Source: a virus
DNA: 36,469 nt
Direction: 5' to 3' (one strand)
Virus record (IMG/VR): IMGVR_UViG_3300008262_000158
Location: 1 to 36,469 of that record
Part shown: piece after piece, positions 17,043-35,739 of the stretch
How positions within the stretch are numbered: the first letter of the stretch is position 1
How the letters are laid out: every line of letters begins with the position of its first letter
Notes under the pieces: generated by a model
Told to the model about the DNA's origin: nothing
Database searches by the model: none
Seen by the model: the letters and a program-made list of their open reading frames with translations, nothing else
Position numbers and translations under genes: made by a program

Positions 17043-17281
17043 TAGTCTTCCTTAGGAATGAAGGCTACTTTTTCTTCTTTTTTAGCTTTAGTTTCAGCCG
17101 ATCTTAGTAAGTAAGCACTCACAGCAATATTAGCCATAGCAAGTGATGTATAAAGACCAGTAAGTTCTTGTGGTAATTCTCCACCAGGAACAAATTGAAT
17201 TTTATAGTGAGCTGTCTTTGGATCTATAATAACTTGGACTTTTTTACCACCACTAGTTTCTTGTTCGCTTAATACTCTCAT
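17042..17281 (-). CDS. 79-residue hypothetical protein in the tail gene region
   Basis: A small protein with a mixed N-terminal strand region ('GGKKVQVIIDPKTAHYKIQF'), a helical middle ('SLAMANIAVSAYLLRSAE') and a Lys/Glu-rich end. It overlaps the 132-residue gene by four bases and the nozzle gene by one base, so it is translated in the late operon. No known domain is recognised. The position between tail tubular proteins A and B suggests a virion or tail-assembly part. Confidence 0.68.
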   Translation of the reverse strand: MRVLSEQETSGGKKVQVIIDPKTAHYKIQFVPGGELPQELTGLYTSLAMANIAVSAYLLRSAETKAKKEEKVAFIPKED

Positions 17282-17676
17282 TTTTTTCCTTTAAGTAGTT
17301 CTCTTCTTTTAATTTCATCTTGACGCATAGTTTCTGTAGTTTGTGTAGACTCATCTTGTAGTTTATTCCAAAATGGAGACTTACCTTCGGCTATACGTTT
17401 CTCTGCACTTCTTTGAGATGTAGCATAAACATCTTCAGGTACTTTACCTGTTTCTCTAATATAGTTAAGATCAGCTGGATGAATACCTTTAGTAAGAGCA
17501 GGTCTATATGTTTCACTAGTTCCAGGTTTACCAATAGATACTTCAGTCATTACATCACGTTGATTAGGTAATCTAACTTCACCTAAGAAACCACGTTCTT
17601 TACTTTCTCCAGTAAATTCTCTTTTACCATAATCAGGTGTTTGAGCTCTTTTTAATTTAGAATAAGGACCAGCCAT
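17278..17676 (-). CDS. 132-residue virion-region protein, shares its C-terminal peptide with the upstream neighbour
   Basis: The N-terminal half ('SKLKRAQTPDYGKREFTGES', 'GEVRLPNQRDVMTEVSIG') resembles a protein seen beside tail genes in many podophages, which often carries a KREFTGESKERG-like segment; the function is unknown. Residues 85-105 ('SAEKRIAEGKSPFW') look like a helical end of that family. The last 19 residues contain 'TETMRQDEIKRRELLK', which matches 'TEKMLQDELKRREMMK' at the end of the 81-residue protein encoded next to it. The start overlaps the neighbour's stop by one base. Confidence 0.72.
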   Translation of the reverse strand: MAGPYSKLKRAQTPDYGKREFTGESKERGFLGEVRLPNQRDVMTEVSIGKPGTSETYRPALTKGIHPADLNYIRETGKVPEDVYATSQRSAEKRIAEGKSPFWNKLQDESTQTTETMRQDEIKRRELLKGKK

Positions 17677-17921
17677 TATCTCTTCTTCATCATTTCTCTA
17701 CGTTTTAATTCATCCTGAAGCATCTTTTCAGTGATAGTCATTGAATTCTTAGCAGCATCTGCTGGTGAAGTAAATGTACCTTGATCAATAGCTTTTTTAA
17801 TTAATGAATCTTGTTGCATATCCATAACTCTTCGAATCTCAGAAATAGGAACTTCTTCCATATCAGGTACAATACTACCTGGAGGTAATTTCTTTTTCTT
17901 TTGCATAGGCATAGTAGACAT
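17676..17921 (-). CDS. 81-residue basic helical protein, shares a C-terminal peptide with the next gene
   Basis: The protein begins with a Lys-rich patch ('MSTMPMQKKKKLPPG') and is then largely helical. Residues 64-79 ('TEKMLQDELKRREMMK') match the end of the 132-residue neighbour at 11 of 16 positions. It starts immediately after the stop of the 39-residue capsid-mimic gene, and GGAAA precedes its ATG. No family is recognised. The shared amphipathic terminal helix suggests that both neighbours bind the same partner. Confidence 0.7.
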   Translation of the reverse strand: MSTMPMQKKKKLPPGSIVPDMEEVPISEIRRVMDMQQDSLIKKAIDQGTFTSPADAAKNSMTITEKMLQDELKRREMMKKR

Positions 17922-17922
17922 A

Positions 17923-18042
17923 TTATTTTCCTAACTTTTTAGATTGTTTTTTAACTTTTTTAGTAGTTACTTTCTTTTTAGATTTCTTACCATATTGTTG
18001 AGCATTAATAAATGCTGGTGTATTACTTGTGAGCATAACCAT
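17923..18042 (-). CDS. 39-residue Lys-rich protein with a capsid-like N-terminal peptide
   Basis: This short gene starts on the stop codon of tail tubular protein A (TAATG) and ends one base before the next gene. Residues 4-18, 'LTSNTPAFINAQQYG', match residues 4-18 of the major capsid protein (LTSNTTAFIEAQQYS) at 12 of 15 positions. Residues 19-39 are a basic tail with 13 Lys. Most shared residues use different codons in the two genes, including a TCT/AGT Ser switch, so the peptide looks selected rather than freshly copied. A capsid-associated or DNA-binding minor virion protein is my inference. Confidence 0.78.
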   Translation of the reverse strand: MVMLTSNTPAFINAQQYGKKSKKKVTTKKVKKQSKKLGK

Positions 18043-18812
18043 TAGTATTTTCCTGATGAGCTTTGTCTACGTCCATAGTTTGGATATGTAATACCATTCT
18101 TAATCTTCCAAGCTTCTTGACTCATTCTACGTTTTTGAGACACTGCTTGTTGTTCTACTTTAGGATTAGCCATTTGTTTTAATGTAACAAAACAAGCTGA
18201 CTTCGCATCATTAAGAAGATAACTAAACATCTGAACTGGGATATCTGGTATAAATGAATCAGATAAAGTAAAGGTTACTGATCGTTTACCATGACATTGA
18301 GTCTTACTATTTTGTAAAGAAGACTCTATAGTATTGTTAAAAGCATCAAATACTACATAGTCATCATCAAAAGAAGTAAAATAAGTAGGAGCTTTATCTT
18401 TATAGATATTAAGTTTAATACCTGTAGCGTCAGTTACTACTTGGATATTAGTAGCTGTACTTAATCGTTTATCTATGATATCAAGAAACTCTTCTGGAGT
18501 TTTGTATTCAATCTTTGTATAACGATTACGAGTCTCACCTGATTTCTTACAATCATATTTAATCCATTCAAGATCAATGATTGTTTCAGGTAATCTCATG
18601 TGTGTAGGACGAGTTACCGTACCACTTGTATCTAATTGGAATAGCTCTTTAAAGAATGGATAGTCTTTACCATCTACAATGTTGTAGTAAGTAGACTTAA
18701 TAATTTGAGCTACTTGAAGAGATTCTGTACTATCATTGATAGAGTTGACTTCATCTGAATCCATATCAGACATGATGTCTTGTACCATCTCAAGTAGTGT
18801 CATTTTAGCCAT
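18042..18812 (-). CDS. tail tubular protein A / gatekeeper (gp11-like)
   Basis: A 256-residue protein beginning 'MTLLEMVQDIMSDMDSDEVN', the helical start typical of podoviral gp11/head-tail connector proteins ('LLEMVQDIL-x-DMD...VN-I'). 'SLQVAQIIKSTYYNIV' continues the family pattern, followed by a beta-sandwich region and a C-terminal helix with 'QKRRMSQEAWKIKNG'. In T7, twelve copies form the ring between portal and nozzle. It is about 60 residues longer than T7 gp11. It lies between the head-protein genes and the small tail-region genes, which fits the T7 order. Confidence 0.87.
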   Translation of the reverse strand: MAKMTLLEMVQDIMSDMDSDEVNSINDSTESLQVAQIIKSTYYNIVDGKDYPFFKELFQLDTSGTVTRPTHMRLPETIIDLEWIKYDCKKSGETRNRYTKIEYKTPEEFLDIIDKRLSTATNIQVVTDATGIKLNIYKDKAPTYFTSFDDDYVVFDAFNNTIESSLQNSKTQCHGKRSVTFTLSDSFIPDIPVQMFSYLLNDAKSACFVTLKQMANPKVEQQAVSQKRRMSQEAWKIKNGITYPNYGRRQSSSGKY

Positions 18813-18821
18813 GATTTATTC

Positions 18822-19391
18822 CTATAGTCTAATAGCAGAAAGTCCTGCTTCAATAACTGTAATTGCTGTACCAGAGGATGTAGCATCTCCACCTACATAA
18901 ATAGATAACACTTGGTTAGCTGTAGCTGTAGTTAATCCTGATGCTGATATATGTAACTTATCAGAACCATTAGATGTTTTAGAAACTGTAAGTGTTCTTC
19001 CAGAAGTTGTACCATCTAAAGCAAATTTAAAATTATATAGTGTACCTGAAGCAATAGCAGCAGTTGAGAATTGGCACCAGAAGTTAATTAAGTATGTGCC
19101 AGCTTCTACTAAAGTAATAGTTCCGTCTGTAGCATTAAGTGTTAGAATATTAGTTACACCAGCTGTCCATTCAGTACCTGGATCTAACCTAGCATAAGCA
19201 GAAGAACCTGAAAGAGTTTGAGAAGTTGCACCTGCGTCAATATACACCTCACCGTGTACTCGACCAGATGGATATGTCCATGCACCTGAACCTGCACCAT
19301 CAGATAAATATACTTTACCTACAGTAGCTGCGGCTACACCTTTAGGTTCGTGAATATCTGGATCTGTGATTAATTTGTGTTGGATCGTCAT
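18822..19391 (-). CDS. head fibre/decoration-like protein with C-terminal jelly-roll
   Basis: A 189-residue protein. Residues 1-35 ('HKLITDPDIHEPKGVAAATV', then 'GKVYLSDGAGS') resemble N-terminal anchors of phage head fibre or decoration proteins. Residues 40-189 are Gly/Ser/Thr-rich beta strands with 'AGTYLINFWCQFS' and 'YNFKFALDGT', a C1q/TNF-like jelly-roll pattern. Such proteins commonly coat the capsid or bind surfaces. The gene is three genes downstream of the capsid gene and separated from the preceding decoration gene by a stable hairpin. Exact location on the virion is inferred. Confidence 0.7.
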   Translation of the reverse strand: MTIQHKLITDPDIHEPKGVAAATVGKVYLSDGAGSGAWTYPSGRVHGEVYIDAGATSQTLSGSSAYARLDPGTEWTAGVTNILTLNATDGTITLVEAGTYLINFWCQFSTAAIASGTLYNFKFALDGTTSGRTLTVSKTSNGSDKLHISASGLTTATANQVLSIYVGGDATSSGTAITVIEAGLSAIRL

Positions 19392-19415
19392 TTGAATTCC
19401 TTATAAGAATGGAGA

Positions 19416-19437
19416 GGCTCCTAGCAATCTAAGAGCC
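19416..19437 (-). terminator. stem-loop after the capsid/decoration genes (attenuator or 3' stabiliser)
   Basis: On the minus strand GGCTCTTAG-ATTG-CTAGGAGCC forms a nine-pair stem (one G-U) with a four-base loop, beginning 17 bases after the stop of the 163-residue decoration gene. The downstream sequence TCTCCATTCTTAT is pyrimidine-rich but not a clean T-run. It could partly terminate transcription after the highly expressed capsid genes or protect their mRNA 3' end. Confidence 0.6.
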
Positions 19438-19453
19438 CATCCAAGTTTGTTAC

Positions 19454-19945
19454 TTAGTCCTTGTTGTAGATATACTCAACAACGATGCGACCAGCACCAG
19501 CTGTTAAGTCATCAACTGAAGGAGTAACTTTTAATTCACCAGCTGCAGCACCAATTGTTTTACCAACTAGAGCACCTGCACCAGTAACTACATTACCTGC
19601 AGTACCAATTGCTGTTTGAGTTGCCTCAGCTACAGTAATTAGACCGTCAGCATCAATTACAGTACCACCAGCTTGATAAAGACCTACGTCTAAATCAGTA
19701 GTAGTAGATGTTGAAGTAAATGCTACGTCAACATATAATTTAGCTGAAACGATAGTTGCATTAGCTGGGATAGAAAGTTGAAGACCAGTACTTCCTTGTG
19801 AAGGAAGATCATTGTAATCAAAGTCCCATACAGCTGACTTAATAATACCGTTCTTTGTTGATTGTTGAGCACCAAACTTACCGTTTGTTGTTCTAACACC
19901 GTAGTGGTTTAGAACGCCACGTTTTCCATCAATTTCGAATGTCAT
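19454..19945 (-). CDS. capsid-adjacent structural/decoration protein
   Basis: A 163-residue beta-rich protein ('LQLSIPANATIVSAKLYVDV', many Thr/Val/Ala/Gly) with no Cys and few Lys in the second half. It comes 11 bases after the major capsid gene with a strong GGAGAAAT site, and is followed by a hairpin that ends the capsid-decoration segment. The start 'MTFEIDGKRGVLNHYGVRTT' resembles N-termini of small proteins following the capsid gene in podophages. A capsid decoration or stabilisation role is inferred from position and composition; no specific family is recognised. Confidence 0.72.
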   Translation of the reverse strand: MTFEIDGKRGVLNHYGVRTTNGKFGAQQSTKNGIIKSAVWDFDYNDLPSQGSTGLQLSIPANATIVSAKLYVDVAFTSTSTTTDLDVGLYQAGGTVIDADGLITVAEATQTAIGTAGNVVTGAGALVGKTIGAAAGELKVTPSVDDLTAGAGRIVVEYIYNKD

Positions 19946-19956
19946 AATATTTCTCC

Positions 19957-20940
19957 TTAGTATGTAGAACCACTTGTTAAAATAACGCCAAGTGTGTCAA
20001 CACGTTGGGCACCGAAACCGAAGCGTGATGTTACTTGATACTTATCAGCACGTTCTTCGTTGTCTCTCCAGCCTTCTGTCTTAGGAGCTCGTCTCCATGC
20101 GTGCATAACTGGTTTTGTTGAATCATCAGCTACACTCATGAATACGTTAGCAACGTCACCAATTTCTGCAGTGTCATTAGCTAAACCATAAGAAGAAGCG
20201 TTTAATGCTTCTGTTGCAGTTTTAACTGGTAAGTAGTTAGAAGTCCAAATATCGAAACCGAAAATGTTCTTCACAAACTTATGATCACGAGCAAAACCTG
20301 ATGTTACGATACCTTCGAACATTGGGTTGTTTGAAACATTGACCAAGTTGGTGATGCTATTTAAAGTAGCTTCAACAATTGGATCAACAATAGCAATACG
20401 ACCACCAGCAGGAACGCCAGCTTTATCAAATGCTAATTTCATAGCAATGATGTCGCTTAAAGTCATAACACGAGTTGTACCACCTGAACCACCTGCTACA
20501 AAACGATGTGGACGACCATTTACTAAGTTTACGTTTGCGTTAGTTTGAGCACCGTTTGCTACAGCTAGGAAACGTGATTCATGGTTTTCACCAAGAGCAC
20601 GTGTAGATTCCATAGCACGCATTGACATAAGTGCATCAACTTGAGCACCATCTTCACGTAGTTCATCAGAAACTTTCCAAGCGTCACCAACATAGTCAGT
20701 GATAGAAAGTGTAATGTTACCTGTGTCGATAGGATTAAAAGCTAAAGGTGTATCTTCAGCAGCATCTTGAAGTGTAACTGTACCAACTGTCTTAATGTTT
20801 AAAGTAGTGCCTGAACCAAAGTCTGATACATCTCTGTATAAACCTTCTGGCAATAAGAAGTCGTGTAAGTTGTCAAGAATGAACTGTGAATACTGTTGTG
20901 CTTCAATAAAAGCAGTAGTATTAGAAGTTAATTGAGACAT
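19957..20940 (-). CDS. major capsid protein
   Basis: A 327-residue protein with the sequence features of a HK97-fold capsid: a helical N-arm (residues 1-30), a long mixed region containing 'GENHESRFLAVANGAQTNAN' and the P-domain-like helix 'LSDIIAMKLAFDKAGVPAGG', then 'IAIVDPIVEATL' and the strand-rich C-terminal A-domain ('YQVTSRFGFGAQRVDTLGVI'). It follows the scaffold gene and precedes decoration genes. Ribosome site AAGGAAA lies in front of the ATG. Residues 4-18 are repeated as the N-terminus of the 39-residue protein at 17923. The assignment rests on these features and on gene order. Confidence 0.92.
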   Translation of the reverse strand: MSQLTSNTTAFIEAQQYSQFILDNLHDFLLPEGLYRDVSDFGSGTTLNIKTVGTVTLQDAAEDTPLAFNPIDTGNITLSITDYVGDAWKVSDELREDGAQVDALMSMRAMESTRALGENHESRFLAVANGAQTNANVNLVNGRPHRFVAGGSGGTTRVMTLSDIIAMKLAFDKAGVPAGGRIAIVDPIVEATLNSITNLVNVSNNPMFEGIVTSGFARDHKFVKNIFGFDIWTSNYLPVKTATEALNASSYGLANDTAEIGDVANVFMSVADDSTKPVMHAWRRAPKTEGWRDNEERADKYQVTSRFGFGAQRVDTLGVILTSGSTY

Positions 20941-20952
20941 AATATTTCCTTA

Positions 20953-21669
20953 TTAGTTAAGTTGAGATTTAACTTTTTCACCAGCAATCTTCCACGCATT
21001 AACTAAATCTTTCGTTGTCGCACCTGATTTAACTCTAGCTGAAAGCTGATTGGGATCAACTTTAGTATTGAGTGCCTCTGTGTTCACAGAACTTGATGAT
21101 TTACCTACTGGTGTAGATGAGCCTTCAAGACCTGAAAGTTTTAATACTACGTTTGGAGAACTAGCTGCCAAGTTATTTAATTGCTGAACATTTAGACCAC
21201 TCTCTTGAGCTATTTTATTGTAGACTTCCTCAGCTTTATCGCCATATTTTTCTACAAATTTACGAGCTACTGCATCAGCATTAGACTTAGCTTTAGCTTG
21301 TTTTTCTCTATTCTCTAGAGTTTGGTTTAAAAGGTTCGTAATTGTATCTTGATCTATTCCAGCAGATTGAGTGGTATTCTCAGGTTGTTGGATGCCAGAC
21401 TTCAATTCATCTAGAAGTTCTTCTGCAGTCTTACGTTTAGTTAGTTCTTCCTTCAAAGTAGCTAATTCAGACTCTAAAGTTTGAATATGCTTCTGTGCGT
21501 GAGGAACTGATTTTAACGCATCTTCTACAGAGTTATACTTCTTACCATCGCCTACAAAGTCTACAGCTTCTGTCGGAATCTGAAACTCAGGTTTTTGGCT
21601 ATCTTGTGTTTGAACTTCGTTGGTACTTGGTTCGTTATTCGTTGCTTGTGTTGCTGTTGCTTCCGTCAT
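20953..21669 (-). CDS. capsid assembly scaffolding protein
   Basis: A 238-residue, highly charged, mostly helical protein. Residues 1-40 are Thr/Asn/Gln/Glu-rich and disordered; residues 65-100 are a coiled coil ('IQTLESELATLKEELTKRKT'); the Lys-containing C-terminus 'VNAWKIAGEKVKSQL' is helical, as in scaffold proteins where this end contacts the capsid. It lies between portal and major capsid as in T7 (gp9). It overlaps the small upstream gene by 35 bases. Confidence 0.87.
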   Translation of the reverse strand: MTEATATQATNNEPSTNEVQTQDSQKPEFQIPTEAVDFVGDGKKYNSVEDALKSVPHAQKHIQTLESELATLKEELTKRKTAEELLDELKSGIQQPENTTQSAGIDQDTITNLLNQTLENREKQAKAKSNADAVARKFVEKYGDKAEEVYNKIAQESGLNVQQLNNLAASSPNVVLKLSGLEGSSTPVGKSSSSVNTEALNTKVDPNQLSARVKSGATTKDLVNAWKIAGEKVKSQLN

Positions 21670-23747: not shown

Positions 23748-25286
23748 TTAAAAACTTACACCGCCAAAGCGAGAGTGTGTCATAACATTTTGTCCTAAAC
23801 TAAATGAACCTACTCTTTGTTTAGGTATGATTGCAATTGTGATAGCATTAGATAAAGCGTCTTTAATGTCATCGTGTGGAGGATGAGCCATAACTAGCTC
23901 TTCTTCTAAGGTTTGACAATTACCACCTTTATAATGCCATATCTGCATATTATCATACTTTGGTTCAAGTACTGCACCAACACGTTCTTCCTTATCACCA
24001 AGATGTCTTGTTGGTCTGAATTCATCTATAGATAAAGCAATTCCATTAGGTTTAAGGTAACTTTCTTTAAGTTCCTTAACAATTGTTTGTTGAGCTACTG
24101 TAATTTCAGCTCTTAACTTCCTGAATCCCCACTTTTCCCAAGCAGTCACTATATGGTTATAGTATTCAATGATTCGATCAGTTTTAAATCTATCTATGTC
24201 TAATACGTAGAAATTACCTTGATGATCTACACCAATCACTACAAGAGCAGTGTAGTCGGCTTTCTTTCTTAATGAGAACGCAAAGTCAATAGCAGCATAA
24301 ACATTAAGTTTTCTATCTCTGATATACCAGTCACCTTCTTTATTTTGTAGTACTGCTCTATCATAATACTGGAACTTATCTGCATCAATCCTAGCAGTAT
24401 CACCACTATTCGGATTGTTATAATACTGAGCATAAAATTGAGTTTGATCCACATATTTAGCTTTAATCCTTGCAAGTTCTTTAGAGTCAAATCCAAATGT
24501 CTTACCATCTGCACGAGTTTGTTTAGTCCAAAGGTATTCACCATCTGTTTCTACGACTCTTTGGAATAGTTCGTAAACTTCTTCTTCTAATTCTACTTCA
24601 CCTGATTCATTGAAGTGAACTTCCTTCATGTTAATCATAGTGTCATAGATATCTTTTGGATGGTATCTAGTACCTACAACCCATTCAAGTGCTCCTGGAT
24701 TCTCAATAGAAGCTAACTGTGAATATGCTGAGGAAACTTTATCACGACCATCTTCAGTGTAAGCGTTACCAGGTACAACAATGTCATCAAGAACAACAAC
24801 GTCAGCATGAAAACCTGTGGTATTAGATGTAAGTCCAACGGCTTTACATGTTGCATCTCGAATACCTTCCAATTTACGTTGTGGATGATCTACGGCAATT
24901 TCAGCTACTGCCCATTTCTCACGTTTACCTTCATCAGGATTAATCATCTCTGACCAGTATCTACGATAAATAGGACTATCTATAATCTGTTTAATAGCAT
25001 AAAGCTGTTTCTCAGCTAAGTCTGCTGTAGCAGATACATATAGAATCGTTGTTTCTGGATGTTTAGTAATCCACCAAGCAGTTCTATAAGCAATCAGTTT
25101 ACTCTTCATGTGACCACGAGGAAGTAGAACTAATTGATTGTTCTTAGCTTCGGAACGAGTCCACCATTGGATGAGTTCTTCGTGAACAGATCCAAGCATC
25201 AAGTGTGGAGCTACTAACTTAATAAATACTAATAAGTCATCCTCAGCTGACTGACGAATAGCTTCGACTCTAGTTTGCATTACCAC
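23748..25286 (-). CDS. terminase large subunit
   Basis: A 512-residue packaging motor. The ATPase half shows 'VLLPRGHMKSKL' (53-64; Walker A variant, as in T7-like terminases), 'ILYVSATADLAEKQL' (81-95; coupling motif) and 'VVVLDD' (163-168; Walker B). The nuclease half has 'YAAIDFAFSLRKKADYTALV' near residues 334-353, with the first catalytic Asp of the RNase H-like fold, and 'HPPHDDIKDAL' near 471-481 with the last acidic pair. It pumps DNA into the procapsid and cuts concatemers. The gene overlaps the 83-residue gene by seven bases and precedes the portal gene by 13. Confidence 0.95.
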   Translation of the reverse strand: MVMQTRVEAIRQSAEDDLLVFIKLVAPHLMLGSVHEELIQWWTRSEAKNNQLVLLPRGHMKSKLIAYRTAWWITKHPETTILYVSATADLAEKQLYAIKQIIDSPIYRRYWSEMINPDEGKREKWAVAEIAVDHPQRKLEGIRDATCKAVGLTSNTTGFHADVVVLDDIVVPGNAYTEDGRDKVSSAYSQLASIENPGALEWVVGTRYHPKDIYDTMINMKEVHFNESGEVELEEEVYELFQRVVETDGEYLWTKQTRADGKTFGFDSKELARIKAKYVDQTQFYAQYYNNPNSGDTARIDADKFQYYDRAVLQNKEGDWYIRDRKLNVYAAIDFAFSLRKKADYTALVVIGVDHQGNFYVLDIDRFKTDRIIEYYNHIVTAWEKWGFRKLRAEITVAQQTIVKELKESYLKPNGIALSIDEFRPTRHLGDKEERVGAVLEPKYDNMQIWHYKGGNCQTLEEELVMAHPPHDDIKDALSNAITIAIIPKQRVGSFSLGQNVMTHSRFGGVSF

Positions 25287-25531
25287 TTGACTTTATTAGC
25301 CCAAAAAGCAGCACTCATCTTACCTTTAGCAATATTCTTAGCGTGTCTTGCTTTAAAAGATTTAGCTCTAGCAGTATCAGTCTTATCTCCAGATACACCT
25401 TTTTGACCAAAACGAATAAGCTTCTCTTTATCACCTTCTTTAGCTAAAACAGCATGACTCTTAGTAGGATGACTAGGTGTTCTCTTAGGTTTATTATAAC
25501 CTGAGAATGTTTCCTTGCCCTTCTTAATCAT
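25280..25531 (-). CDS. 83-residue basic protein upstream of terminase
   Basis: A Lys-rich protein with the pattern 'GYNKPKRTPSHPTKSHAVLA', 'IRFGQKGVSGDKTDTARAKS' and 'RHAKNIAKGKMSAAFWANKV'. I recall this as a widespread phage protein (KSHxVxA...IRFGQQGVxG...AKGKMSAAYWA), often near head genes and possibly DUF6321; the role is unknown. It overlaps the 49-residue gene by four bases (ATGA) and the terminase start by seven. The basic, Gly-rich character would suit binding to DNA or RNA. Confidence 0.8.
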   Translation of the reverse strand: MIKKGKETFSGYNKPKRTPSHPTKSHAVLAKEGDKEKLIRFGQKGVSGDKTDTARAKSFKARHAKNIAKGKMSAAFWANKVKW

Positions 25532-28943: not shown

Positions 28944-29483
28944 TTATTCCTCTGCTGGTAAAGGTGTGTTGTTTTGTTTTTTAATCATACTAATTTTCAT
29001 TTTAGTTTCTTCCGTTAATTTACGACCTAATGATTTTAGTCTTATTTTTTCTTTAGTTTCTTCTGATAGTTTTCTACCAAGTTTAGCTTGCCTTAACTTC
29101 TCACGATGCTCTGGAGTAAATTTAGGAACATTAGGCTTATTAGCCATTTGTATCTTTACTTGTTGAGAATAATCTTTTCTAGCCTTATCGTAAGTTTTAG
29201 AAGATACTCTTTCGTATCTACCAACACTACTCATCATAAAGAAAGCTCTAGTCATGTTCTCACCATAAGCCTTCCACAACATCCAATGAGCTATGTAATG
29301 TTGCCTAGCAGTTAATGCTACTAGATTACTTTTATCATTAGAACCACCACTACTTTTAGGTATGATGTGATGAAGTTCATAATATCCAGCTATAACTTGA
29401 CCTTTTAATACTGCTATAAACTTGTTATAGCGGTTTAAATAGTGTTGATTAAGCACTAGGTTTGTCAGCTGGAATAGGAACAT
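28944..29483 (-). CDS. HNH homing endonuclease with NUMOD3 repeats
   Basis: A 179-residue free-standing homing endonuclease. 'ELHHIIPKSSGGSNDKSNLV' (36-55) is the HNH core with its His-His pair and Asn, followed by 'ARQHYIAHWML'. Near residues 135-165 there are two copies of the NUMOD3 DNA-binding repeat (GRKLSEETKEKI and GRKLTEETKMKI). These enzymes cut alleles that lack them and spread by repair. The start lies inside the 55-residue fibre-associated gene in another frame, and the C-terminus 'NNTPLPAEE' resembles the end of that gene's product (NVPIPADKPSA). A different start is possible, since the first 15 residues are not typical of the family. Confidence 0.88.
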   Translation of the reverse strand: MFLFQLTNLVLNQHYLNRYNKFIAVLKGQVIAGYYELHHIIPKSSGGSNDKSNLVALTARQHYIAHWMLWKAYGENMTRAFFMMSSVGRYERVSSKTYDKARKDYSQQVKIQMANKPNVPKFTPEHREKLRQAKLGRKLSEETKEKIRLKSLGRKLTEETKMKISMIKKQNNTPLPAEE

Positions 29484-30982: not shown

Positions 30983-31590
30983 TATCCTTTAATCTCCATA
31001 ACTGTTATTGATGATACTGCTCTTCCATCGTATCCTAGGTTATTATCATCTCTACCAGATCTATTGATAGCTATAGCAGTTCCATTAGAACTTAAAACTT
31101 GAATTTTATATGTAGTGGCAGAAGTTGTTGATGGAGAATCAAGGTAAGAACCACTAAATGTATATTGCCCTTGTCCATTTGTATTTACAATAAATGTAGA
31201 ACATCTTCTAATTCCAGCAGCGTCCGCTTTAAATATTTCGGTAGAGTTTCTTACTAATGTTCCGTAGCCATGACAAATATCTCCATTTGTTCCCGCATCA
31301 ACTGAATACATAATTAAAATTTTACTAGAAGTGGAAGATGGAGTAATAGACACAGATAATCCTGTAATATCGACATAAGACGTGCTTGTAACTGTAGTGG
31401 CATCCGTTTTTGTAGATTGAATTACTTGAACAATAGAACCAGCTGGTAATGATGATGAACTAATAGTACTTGAGTTTGTTAAAACTGTACCACTAGTGGA
31501 TGGTAACGTAAGTGTAGTAGTGCCAGCTACATCTGGTGCTGATAGTGTTACTGATCCGCTGGTGTTACCAGCTATAAGTATACTAGACAA
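30982..31590 (-). CDS. tail fibre protein, 202 residues, TTG start
   Basis: A beta-rich fibre protein beginning 'MSSILIAGNTSGSVTLSAPD', with Thr/Ser-rich repeats ('TTTLTLPSTSGTVLT') that recur at the N-terminus of small phage fibres, then a jelly-roll-like domain ('KILIMYSVDAGTNG', 'GQYTFSGSYLDSPS'). The start codon is TTG at 31590 with a strong AAGGAGC site eight bases upstream. This site lies in the coding sequence of the GIY-YIG endonuclease, whose stop codon is inside the new gene. The original ATG may have been changed when the endonuclease gene inserted. Confidence 0.8.
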   Translation of the reverse strand: MSSILIAGNTSGSVTLSAPDVAGTTTLTLPSTSGTVLTNSSTISSSSLPAGSIVQVIQSTKTDATTVTSTSYVDITGLSVSITPSSTSSKILIMYSVDAGTNGDICHGYGTLVRNSTEIFKADAAGIRRCSTFIVNTNGQGQYTFSGSYLDSPSTTSATTYKIQVLSSNGTAIAINRSGRDDNNLGYDGRAVSSITVMEIKG

Positions 31591-32167
31591 TTTGATGCTC
31601 CTTCAATTTGCAATTATTCATGTGCCATCTTTTCATAGGGATAATTCCTCCAACTTTATTGCAATGAGGGCAAGTAACTGTAGGAAAATGCTTTCCCTTC
31701 ATTGTTGGTATACGATTCATATTTGCTATTCTTAATGCTTCTTTGTTTTTAGCAGACATTGGTCTGCCAATCAAACCTTTAATTCTTTTTTCTTTTTCTT
31801 CTTTAGTATGAATTCTTCCTGTATTAGCTTTTATTACAGCTTCAATAACATGAGGCAATGCTGGTATGCCTTTATTCCATCTACTAATTGGTGGATTGCC
31901 ACCGCCTTTAACAATGTTCCAACCAATATTATCTGTGCTTCTTAATGCTTTTTCTATCATAAAACAATAAGCATCATCTGCTACAAGTATAATTTGTTTT
32001 ACTAGATTATCCCATCCATATTTATTAATAGCATTTTTAAGATGTGGATTATCACTACGTTTAGCATGATTTCTAAAACGTCTTTTCAAATCTTTTGACA
32101 CACCTATATATCCTTGTGAGAACATATCAGTATGCTCTGGATGATGTATCCAGTAGACTGAACTCAT
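31583..32167 (-). CDS. GIY-YIG homing endonuclease with NUMOD3 and zinc-finger tail
   Basis: A 194-residue enzyme. The nuclease domain shows V4-Y5-W6, G19-Y20-I21-G22, R29 and E72, matching GIY...YIG, the conserved Arg and the metal-binding Glu. After it come a NUMOD3-like segment ('NTGRIHTKEEKEKRIKGLIG', about 113-135) and a C-terminal zinc finger with 'CPHCNKVGG' and 'RWHMNNC', which should aid site binding. It starts on an ATGA overlap with a chaperone gene and ends eight bases into the next fibre gene, so it sits between two fibre cassettes. Confidence 0.92.
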   Translation of the reverse strand: MSSVYWIHHPEHTDMFSQGYIGVSKDLKRRFRNHAKRSDNPHLKNAINKYGWDNLVKQIILVADDAYCFMIEKALRSTDNIGWNIVKGGGNPPISRWNKGIPALPHVIEAVIKANTGRIHTKEEKEKRIKGLIGRPMSAKNKEALRIANMNRIPTMKGKHFPTVTCPHCNKVGGIIPMKRWHMNNCKLKEHQIV

Positions 32168-33359: not shown

Positions 33360-33665
33360 TTAATAAACCCTTTTCCAATTTCCACTTTGTTTAATATAAA
33401 TCTGATCTGGTAGTTTCCACGTTCCATTATGTTTAACATAAGGTGTTGATACTTTCCACGAACCTCCAACATTGTAATACATGTTCTGATAGAATGTAGT
33501 TAATGTTGGTATTGCGTTTAAATAACTATTAACATTATTTACAATAACATCATTTGTAATTCTAGTATCGCCAGCTTCTGTAATTCTCGTATCATCTGCT
33601 TCAGTAATACGAATTACATCTGTAGCTATTCCTGATTCAACTTGTCCGTATTGAATTAAAGGCAT
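33360..33665 (-). CDS. small tail protein with RITEA repeats and the shared C-terminal domain
   Basis: A 101-residue protein made of two recognisable pieces. Residues 18-42 carry an eight-residue repeat (RITEADDT, RITEAGDT, RITNDVIV). The final 44 residues share 28 identities with the last 44 of the upstream 293-residue protein, including 'STPYVKH-GTWK' and a terminal 'W-RVY'. This terminal block has regularly spaced Trp/Tyr and may be a small beta domain binding a common tail partner or sugar. The two genes are adjacent, suggesting duplication of the end piece. Confidence 0.78.
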   Translation of the reverse strand: MPLIQYGQVESGIATDVIRITEADDTRITEAGDTRITNDVIVNNVNSYLNAIPTLTTFYQNMYYNVGGSWKVSTPYVKHNGTWKLPDQIYIKQSGNWKRVY

Positions 33666-34547
33666 CTAGTAAACCCTCGTCCAAGTACCACTTACTTTTT
33701 TATAAATGTATTCTGGTATCTTCCAAGTACCAGCATGTTTGACATAGGGAGTAGATGTCTTCCATGCTCCACTGACTTTGACATACATTGTTGAAGTGAA
33801 TGGTACTAACGTTCCTTCAGGAGTGATAGATCCTGTAGCACTTAAACTTGTAGATCCACCAATCTTACTATCACCATCTGCTGCTATACTACCAGCTCCA
33901 CTAAGAGCTGATTCACCAAACTTAATTCTAAATCCAATAGAACTTATACTACCTGTACCTGTTAAACTTGTAGCTCCGTTTAATGTCAACTTAGGAACAA
34001 CTGACATGGTACCTGTAGCTTGTAGATCTGAATTTCTATAAGCAACGAGTCTAGAGTCTTCAGTAATTGTAGCTACACCAGTAAAATTATGGACATGTCC
34101 AATAAATTTACCAATACTAAAGAACGCTTCTGAAGCAGTTGCAGATAAATCTACTGTTGTTCTATAAGTAGTATGTCCATCAAATGAAGCACTACCTGTA
34201 GAACTTAAATCTGCAAATACATATTTAACTACACGAGCTTGTGAATCTAAAGATCCTTGACCTGTTAAGTTAGAGAATCCTTTTGCTTGTAGATTACCTA
34301 CATCATCTAACGTACCTGTACCTGTTAAGGCACTTGCACCATATCTTGTTAAGGTAGCTACTGATGCACAGTATCCTTCACCACCATTATCAAAAAACCC
34401 TACTTGCTTTAAACTTTGAAGTGCACTTAAACTTCCAGTTGCACTTAGATCACTGAATTGTTCAGAGAACTTCTCAGTGATTCGGAACACATCTGCTTCC
34501 GTGATCCTATAGTCCCCATTTTCGAGAACACGAAAGCCATCAGCCAT
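33666..34547 (-). CDS. repeat-containing tail protein, 293 residues
   Basis: The protein has a RITE-type start ('GDYRITEADVFRITEKF', residues 11-27), then about ten imperfect repeats of roughly 22 residues. Each contains a short [L/F]-[S/T/Q]-[A/G/S]-[T/G/V]-[G/A]-[S/T] core (for example LSATGSLS, LTGTGTLD, LTGQGSLD, LSSTGSAS, LQATGTMS, LTGTGSIS, LSGAGSIA, LSATGSIT) and alternating beta strands. The last 44 residues are the Trp/Tyr domain shared with the downstream gene product. The repeats probably form an extended beta-helical or beta-solenoid shaft. Confidence 0.8.
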   Translation of the reverse strand: MADGFRVLENGDYRITEADVFRITEKFSEQFSDLSATGSLSALQSLKQVGFFDNGGEGYCASVATLTRYGASALTGTGTLDDVGNLQAKGFSNLTGQGSLDSQARVVKYVFADLSSTGSASFDGHTTYRTTVDLSATASEAFFSIGKFIGHVHNFTGVATITEDSRLVAYRNSDLQATGTMSVVPKLTLNGATSLTGTGSISSIGFRIKFGESALSGAGSIAADGDSKIGGSTSLSATGSITPEGTLVPFTSTMYVKVSGAWKTSTPYVKHAGTWKIPEYIYKKVSGTWTRVY

Positions 34548-35294: not shown

Positions 35295-35555
35295 TTAATA
35301 TCCCCTCTTCTTACGAAGTGCTTCTTTTGTTAAATTTGTTTTAGCTGAAACAACACGAAGGTTGCTTCTTGAATTACTACCACCTTGAACCAGTGGTTTC
35401 TTGTGATCTACTTGACGACTGTCTCCTACTTTGAGACCTGATATCTTACGAGCAGCGTTACGCTTTGCCCTATCTTTAACTCGACTTGGTTTAGATGATT
35501 TCTCCCAAGCCAACTCTTTTTTGTAATCTCTTTTACCGTTAGTTGTAAATGGCAT
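35295..35555 (-). CDS. small HNH nuclease
   Basis: An 86-residue protein from the ATG at 35555; a GTG at 35579 would add eight unrelated residues. 'MPFTTNGKRDYKKELAWEKS' and the basic 'KDRAKRNAARKISGLKVGDS' precede 'RQVDHKKPLVQGGSNSRSNL' (48-67), the HNH core with D50-H51 and the later Asn. Small HNH proteins of this kind are common near phage terminase genes and can be needed for packaging-related cleavage; others are selfish. No NUMOD repeats are present, unlike in the homing enzyme at 28944. It lies two genes downstream of the putative small terminase. Confidence 0.88.
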   Translation of the reverse strand: MPFTTNGKRDYKKELAWEKSSKPSRVKDRAKRNAARKISGLKVGDSRQVDHKKPLVQGGSNSRSNLRVVSAKTNLTKEALRKKRGY

Positions 35556-35556
35556 A

Positions 35557-35739
35557 TTATGGGTAGAGGTAATCAGCACCGTTAGTGGTGTAGTACAATC
35601 TCATAAGATCAGGTAAAGAGAAACCTGTGACAGATAGATCTGTTTCCAGTGCTTTCTTCAAACCATCATTGTACTGAGTAGGATAGCCTTTGGTAATGCA
35701 ATAAGCACGAAAGGTATCTTGATCTGGAAAATTCATCAT
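35557..35739 (-). CDS. 60-residue hypothetical protein
   Basis: A short protein ('MMNFPDQDTFRAYCITKGYP', then 'GLKKALETDLSVTGFSLPDL') with a likely helical fold. It is placed two bases after the putative small terminase gene and ends one base before the HNH gene's ATG. I recognise no family. Proximity to packaging genes suggests, but does not show, a role in DNA packaging or head completion. Confidence 0.7.
   Translation of the reverse strand: MMNFPDQDTFRAYCITKGYPTQYNDGLKKALETDLSVTGFSLPDLMRLYYTTNGADYLYP

Follow-up and report, generated by a model that had tools for sequence, protein, structure and literature searches.

A short lysine-rich phage protein with a copy of the capsid protein N-arm peptide is a candidate head component

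Results

The DNA analyzed here (the window) is the whole 36,469-base stretch of one IMG/VR virus record, IMGVR_UViG_3300008262_000158, and the subject is a small gene at 17923–18042 on the minus strand, encoding a protein of 39 residues (MVMLTSNTPAFINAQQYGKKSKKKVTTKKVKKQSKKLGK). This protein consists of a tag resembling the N-terminal arm (N-arm) of the major capsid protein (MCP) of the same phage, followed by a polylysine tail. The tag comprises residues 4–18 (LTSNTPAFINAQQYG; 17989–18033, minus strand), and the tail, which is variable among relatives, comprises residues 19–39 (17926–17988, minus strand). The MCP gene lies at 19957–20940 on the minus strand (phrog_267, E 6.5e-45) and encodes the N-terminus MSQLTSNTTAFIEAQQYSQFILDN, of which residues 4–18 (LTSNTTAFIEAQQYS; 20887–20931, minus strand) are the N-arm peptide. 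The ATG of the small gene overlaps by one base the stop codon (TAATG) of an adaptor or tail-tube-A-like gene (18042–18812, minus strand; phrog_7592, E 4e-93), whose product is annotated in relatives as "head completion adaptor" or "putative adaptor protein". AGGAAAA, a likely ribosome-binding site for the small gene, is present at 18048–18054 (minus strand), within the end of the adaptor gene. A stop/start overlap with an upstream AGGA is a common form of translational coupling.

The window is related to the Methylophilales phages MEP401 and MEP402, its nearest named relatives, both placed by GenBank in the Zobellviridae, and the Zobellviridae gene order of terminase, portal, scaffold, MCP and adaptor is conserved in it. 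Its MCP is 84% identical to that of ctOsX528, 78% to that of MEP402 and 77% to that of MEP401, with other Zobellviridae below 60%.

An earlier note, made from the sequence of this stretch, had pointed out the resemblance between the small protein and the MCP. Both open reading frames (ORFs) were found at the coordinates it gave, and residues 4–18 of the two proteins were indeed identical at 12 of 15 positions, in register. Among the 1081 distinct putative N-termini of the window, the small ORF was the only strong match to the MCP peptide besides the MCP itself, the next best reaching 8/15, and a score above 8 was obtained in none of 20,000 shuffles of the peptide. The match is real, and chance is ruled out. 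Different codons were used at 7 of the 12 shared residues, as the note had described. Its count of 13 lysines in the tail was one too many, as the tail has 12, with no Arg, Asp or Glu. The equal distance of the peptide from the start, which it had also noted, holds in register here but is loose in relatives, which begin with MLTSNT, MVMLTSNT, MSQLTSNT or MEGNKMLTSNT.

No further ORF start bearing the tag was found in the window, ctOsX528 or MEP402. A terminase peptide (GLTSNTTGFHAD, within 23748–25286, minus strand) was considered as a third copy of the tag and rejected. It belongs to a conserved stretch of the terminase, and the resemblance is coincidental because LTSNTT stays unchanged in MEP401 and MEP402, while their MCP and small tags differ (TTANT/NTANT).

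Conservation and distribution of the tagged gene

Related viral contigs were retrieved using the adaptor protein as the query. The earlier note had suggested comparing short frames on the adaptor stop codon with the N-terminus of the MCP of the same phage, and this comparison, made in the 216 loci that hold both the MCP start and the adaptor stop, yielded a tagged small ORF in 199 (197 by a strict motif, plus the two variants L207 and L225). Because many of these loci were near-duplicates or the same contig retrieved twice, conservation is better judged by the non-redundant numbers, namely 62 distinct combinations of MCP tag with small tag and about 90 different small proteins. In the 199 loci, the small ORF encodes an N-terminal tag of the form [ND]Tx[ASP]F[IVM]xxxxY and, after it, a Lys-rich tail (median net charge +14). 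When all IMG/VR contigs were scanned for the exact pattern irrespective of neighbouring genes, 36 hits were obtained. The 12 that were inspected, including all previously unseen contigs, adjoined the same adaptor gene in every case, and 10 of them also held MCP sequence; the uninspected hits were on already known contigs. Homologues are present at the same place in MEP402 (MEP402_gp39, WBF78159.1) and MEP401 (MEP401_gp37, WBF78090.1), where GenBank labels them "hypothetical protein". The tagged small proteins scanned had no PHROGs match, no Pfam match above the cut-off and no link to an internal-protein or other family, and the literature search retrieved no report of the family and no published equivalent.

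The small gene was absent within 7 kb to either side of the MCP gene, where the record allows, in CW02, Klyazma, CVT22, ICP2, PA11, PS32B-12 and Pecta. It was also absent from the whole genome of ctOsX528, from its allies L211, L212, L216 and L243, and from L145, L148 and L152. In 158 further loci around wider Zobellviridae-type MCPs, no second tagged protein was found and the MCP peptide was kept, and the MCPs examined from the ctOsX528 group and the Zobellviridae proper likewise keep the peptide though they lack the small gene. Therefore, the peptide belongs primarily to the MCP, and the small protein is a lineage-specific borrower. The small gene is a lineage-specific accessory. A scan of bacterial genomes with the adaptor found no relative.

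One tag and varied basic tails

The consensus of the small proteins was [ND]-T-x-[ASP]-F-[IVM]-[HNKED]-x-[EQDN]-x-Y-[GSE], and that of the MCPs in the compared pairs was NT-x-A-F-[IV]-E-[AS]-[QET]-Q-Y-S. The T, F and Y were constant in both proteins, and the N and I/V almost so, while in place of Glu13 of the MCP the small protein usually had His, Asn or Lys, and in place of Ser18 usually Gly. The tail after the Tyr had a median length of 33 residues, with 39% Lys, 1.6% Asp plus Glu and a net charge of +5 to +20. The tails were always basic, yet about 18 rough classes stood behind the one tag, some with recognizably different bodies (L436 and L440 add MAIKEYGGKEVYKSKAAMKKHEKKEGKK; L449 adds SEDSLAKQSRKKGKLGQRKLLNTSLKK).

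The alignment also bears on the alternative raised in the earlier note, that one protease processes both N-termini. Prp, which cuts L27, capsid and scaffold proteins in S. aureus, is a precedent for a shared N-terminal motif marking a cleavage site (PMC5744158). However, the residue after the conserved Tyr is mostly G in the small proteins and S in the paired MCPs, conservation of the MCP continues unbroken through the next helix, and a Pfam scan of structural ORFs, some of which have no assignment, recognized no protease domain among them. A shared processing site is therefore very unlikely.

Other small ORFs were observed around the tagged gene. The two adjacent ORFs downstream of it, at 17278–17676 and 17676–17921 (minus strand), have a common C-terminal motif (MLQDELKRREMMKKR and MRQDEIKRRELLKGKK), and small ORFs at the corresponding place in relatives have similar endings, such as DEEERRKKMKGK. 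In L012 and its relatives, a second lysine-rich small ORF (MAEKWIQKAIKKPGALRKALGV...KKPGKMGQRARLAQTLKKM) starts about 70 bases past the adaptor stop and overlaps the tagged gene. It has homologues in Pelagibacter phage HTVC027P and in Rhizobium and Thermus phages, as well as a weak, sub-cutoff similarity to fusellovirus VP2.

Selection and correlated variation

The ratio of nonsynonymous to synonymous variation (pN/pS) was 0.35 for the small tag, compared with 0.85 for tails of the same length, 0.22 for the MCP tag and 1.24 when the reading frame of the tag was shifted. Purifying selection thus acts on the tag at the amino-acid level. The same codon was used at 51% of the shared residues, against 50% predicted from codon usage. 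Since codon agreement is at the usage expectation, the match was kept at the protein level and does not reflect recent copying or gene conversion. A chance match or a functionless remnant, left when the start of the MCP gene was partly duplicated locally, would suit those relatives in which the small gene is missing. Nevertheless, retention over the 62 distinct tag pairs and some 90 distinct proteins, the purifying selection on the tag and the exclusion of a chance match make it hardly conceivable that the gene is such a relic.

Two positions, -3 and -1 counted from "NT", are variable in the small protein and in the MCP alike. MCPs with LTSNT were mostly paired with small proteins having LTSNT, TTANT was paired with TTANT or NTANT, and STGNT with NTGNT. 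The match to the phage's own MCP was 0.565 at -3 and 0.484 at -1, compared with 0.31 and 0.29 after permutation, and none of 5000 permutations reached the observed values. A partial Mantel correlation of 0.24 was left after removal of the adaptor and MCP-body distances (0/2000), and Pagel's test of dependence for Leu at -3 gave P = 0.001. When the small residue was simulated on three trees (adaptor, MCP-body and joint), P was 0.0005–0.0015 at -3 and 0.0095–0.0145 at -1. Thus, shared ancestry alone does not account for the agreement of tag residues -3 and -1 with the MCP of the same phage (P about 0.001 and 0.01, respectively). The variable columns 5, 10 and 11 were tested in addition and showed no such match. 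The correlated variation that the earlier note had expected of a shared partner was accordingly seen at two variable residues. The tag resembles the N-arm of its own MCP and varies with it at two positions, with exceptions.

This covariation suits a competitor as well as a resident of the capsid. The tag could compete for the binding site of the MCP N-arm and slow or gate shell assembly or expansion, with the Lys tail anchoring the protein to DNA or membranes and the protein not being a stable part of the virion. In the CpmB/scaffold pair of SaPI1 and 80alpha, a small motif-sharing protein can compete in capsid assembly (PMC5644958). An assembly modulator does not readily explain why strong basicity is constant while the tail sequences differ, and we regard it as improbable.

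Capsid fold and possible partners of the tag

The MCP was modelled twice with AlphaFold, and the fold was good in the second run, with the N-arm unplaced (predicted local distance difference test score, pLDDT, 76; predicted template modelling score, pTM, 0.73). The best Foldseek matches of the model were cyanophage A4 (E 8e-16), P-SCSP1u, Kp7 and Kp9, and the MCP is modelled as having a T7-like HK97 fold. In HK97-type capsids, the N-arm is inside the procapsid as a helix against the scaffold and later threads under the E-loop of a neighbour (PMC6813328, PMC9965877, PMC10575957). The arms of SPP1 pair antiparallel via Ile10, Pro12, Phe15 and Tyr18 (PMC6813328), acidic arm residues of P22 are bound by the scaffold (PMC9965877), and the arms of P-SCSP1u link pentons and hexons, with one penton replaced by the portal (PMC10575957). 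Hydrophobic and aromatic residues are retained in the small protein and the acidic one is mostly lost, a pattern that would favour the capsid groove over a P22-like scaffold contact.

The scaffold gene of this phage lies at 20953–21669 on the minus strand (phrog_7931; the same position is annotated as scaffold in MEP401 and MEP402). Its product could itself be the partner of the tag, with the MCP-binding end of the scaffold recognizing the tag in the procapsid. As with the T4 capsid-targeting sequence, this would bring the basic protein into the head, where it would remain with the DNA once the scaffold has left, the mature groove being uninvolved. Contacts between scaffold and MCP N-arm are documented in P22, 80alpha and SPP1 (PMC9965877, PMC5644958, PMC6813328), and T4 internal proteins use an N-terminal tag of about 10 residues (PMC9958956); in the present family, tails vary behind one tag. 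On the other hand, the P22 contact involves acidic arm residues, while the small protein usually loses Glu13 and has no following helix, and the C-terminus of the scaffold (DLVxAWKxAGxKVK) is similar in close relatives whether they carry the small gene or lack it. Targeting via the scaffold is thus unlikely, though less so than the other alternatives.

Neighbouring genes

Several further features were observed in the window, all on the minus strand. The ORF at 18822–19391, near the capsid gene, has a weak, below-cut-off similarity to BclA_C (TNF-like), and CW02 is annotated at this position with a possible head fibre. A basic ORF of 83 residues at 25280–25531, ahead of the terminase, matches phrog_7595 (function unknown). 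HNH/NUMOD3, GIY-YIG-like and HNH-like endonuclease ORFs at 28944–29483, 31583–32167 and 35295–35579, respectively, lie in or beside the tail-gene region and are probably homing endonucleases. The adjacent tail ORFs at 33360–33665 and 33666–34547 have in common N-terminal RITEAD repeats and the C-terminal sequence YVKHxGTWKxPxxIYxKxxGxWxRVY.

Discussion

The conserved tagged family suggests a previously unlabelled head component. In our preferred reading, which we consider fairly probable on the sequence evidence, the small gene product is a two-part head protein, whose tag would mimic the N-arm and dock in or on the capsid, like that of the T4 capsid-targeted internal proteins but copied from the capsid itself. 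The protein would be present in the virion, and its lysine-rich tail would hang into the head and neutralize or organize the packaged DNA. The tail is most simply a DNA binder, probably so by analogy with the T4 internal proteins, whose lysines touch DNA phosphates (PMC3012670). The earlier note had likewise proposed a docking or co-assembly tag joined to a DNA-binding tail; the 199 of 216 loci and the two tracking residues speak for a partner or docking site common to both peptides and for a basic tail that probably binds DNA, while physical docking is what we infer from them.

Several observations weigh against an N-arm mimic of this kind. ctOsX528, despite its closely related MCP, lives without the small gene, and the replacement of Glu13 means that not all functions of the arm are copied. 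The covariation is confined to two tag positions and is not strict, and L071, L117, L130, L164 and L193 pair different tags, i.e., some mixing is tolerated. Finally, residues 1–28 of the MCP had a pLDDT below 50 and were disordered in the monomer model, so that the docking site could not be placed. Mismatched pairs are expected with occasional gene exchange or a loose fit, and disorder of the arm in a monomer is expected because the arm needs its neighbours.

As a specific proposal, the small protein might occupy the arm sites that go unfilled at the vertex where the portal stands in for a penton; these sites are attractive because the small gene is coupled to the adaptor gene. In its most general form, the idea is that of a modular, self-derived capsid-targeting tag, in which a copy of the capsid arm before interchangeable polycationic tails fills subunit-free arm-docking sites, for example at the portal vertex, and tethers the genome. 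This form is tentative, and we lean slightly against it. If the N-arm mimic is correct, copying the capsid's own arm as a tag would be a simple route for a phage to recruit head cargo, and hypothetical proteins of one family, carried by widespread environmental phages, would gain a function. Protein loading into T7-like capsids would also gain a short tag of natural origin, and how capsid arms are received could be tested using a peptide of 15 residues together with MEP401 and MEP402, which are in culture.

Comparison with known systems

The closest parallel is with the internal proteins IPI–IPIII of T4 and their capsid targeting sequence (CTS), where a short N-terminal tag is common to differing bodies (PMC9958956), as the one tag is here to about 18 classes of tails. 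Their lysines contact packaged DNA (PMC3012670), a contact that the lysine tail would also make. However, T4 has another tag and relies on a scaffold core and on the gp21 protease, whereas the tag here is a copy of the MCP N-arm, and there is no family match between the two. In SaPI1, CpmB also shares a short binding motif of a major assembly protein (RIIK, of the 80alpha scaffold) and binds at the same place (PMC5644958), but that motif is the scaffold's and binds the capsid, whereas here it is the capsid's own arm. The Prp motif of the 80alpha capsid protein, scaffold protein and L27 is likewise an N-terminal peptide common to the capsid and a second assembly protein (PMC5744158). It is a host protease site, whereas no sign of cleavage was found here (YG versus YS after the tag; no phage protease recognized among the scanned structural ORFs). 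The nearest named homologues, MEP402_gp39 and MEP401_gp37, differ from the small protein of the window in having a TTG start and a longer tail, and carry TTANT tags close to their own MCP (TTANT in MEP402, NTANT in MEP401).

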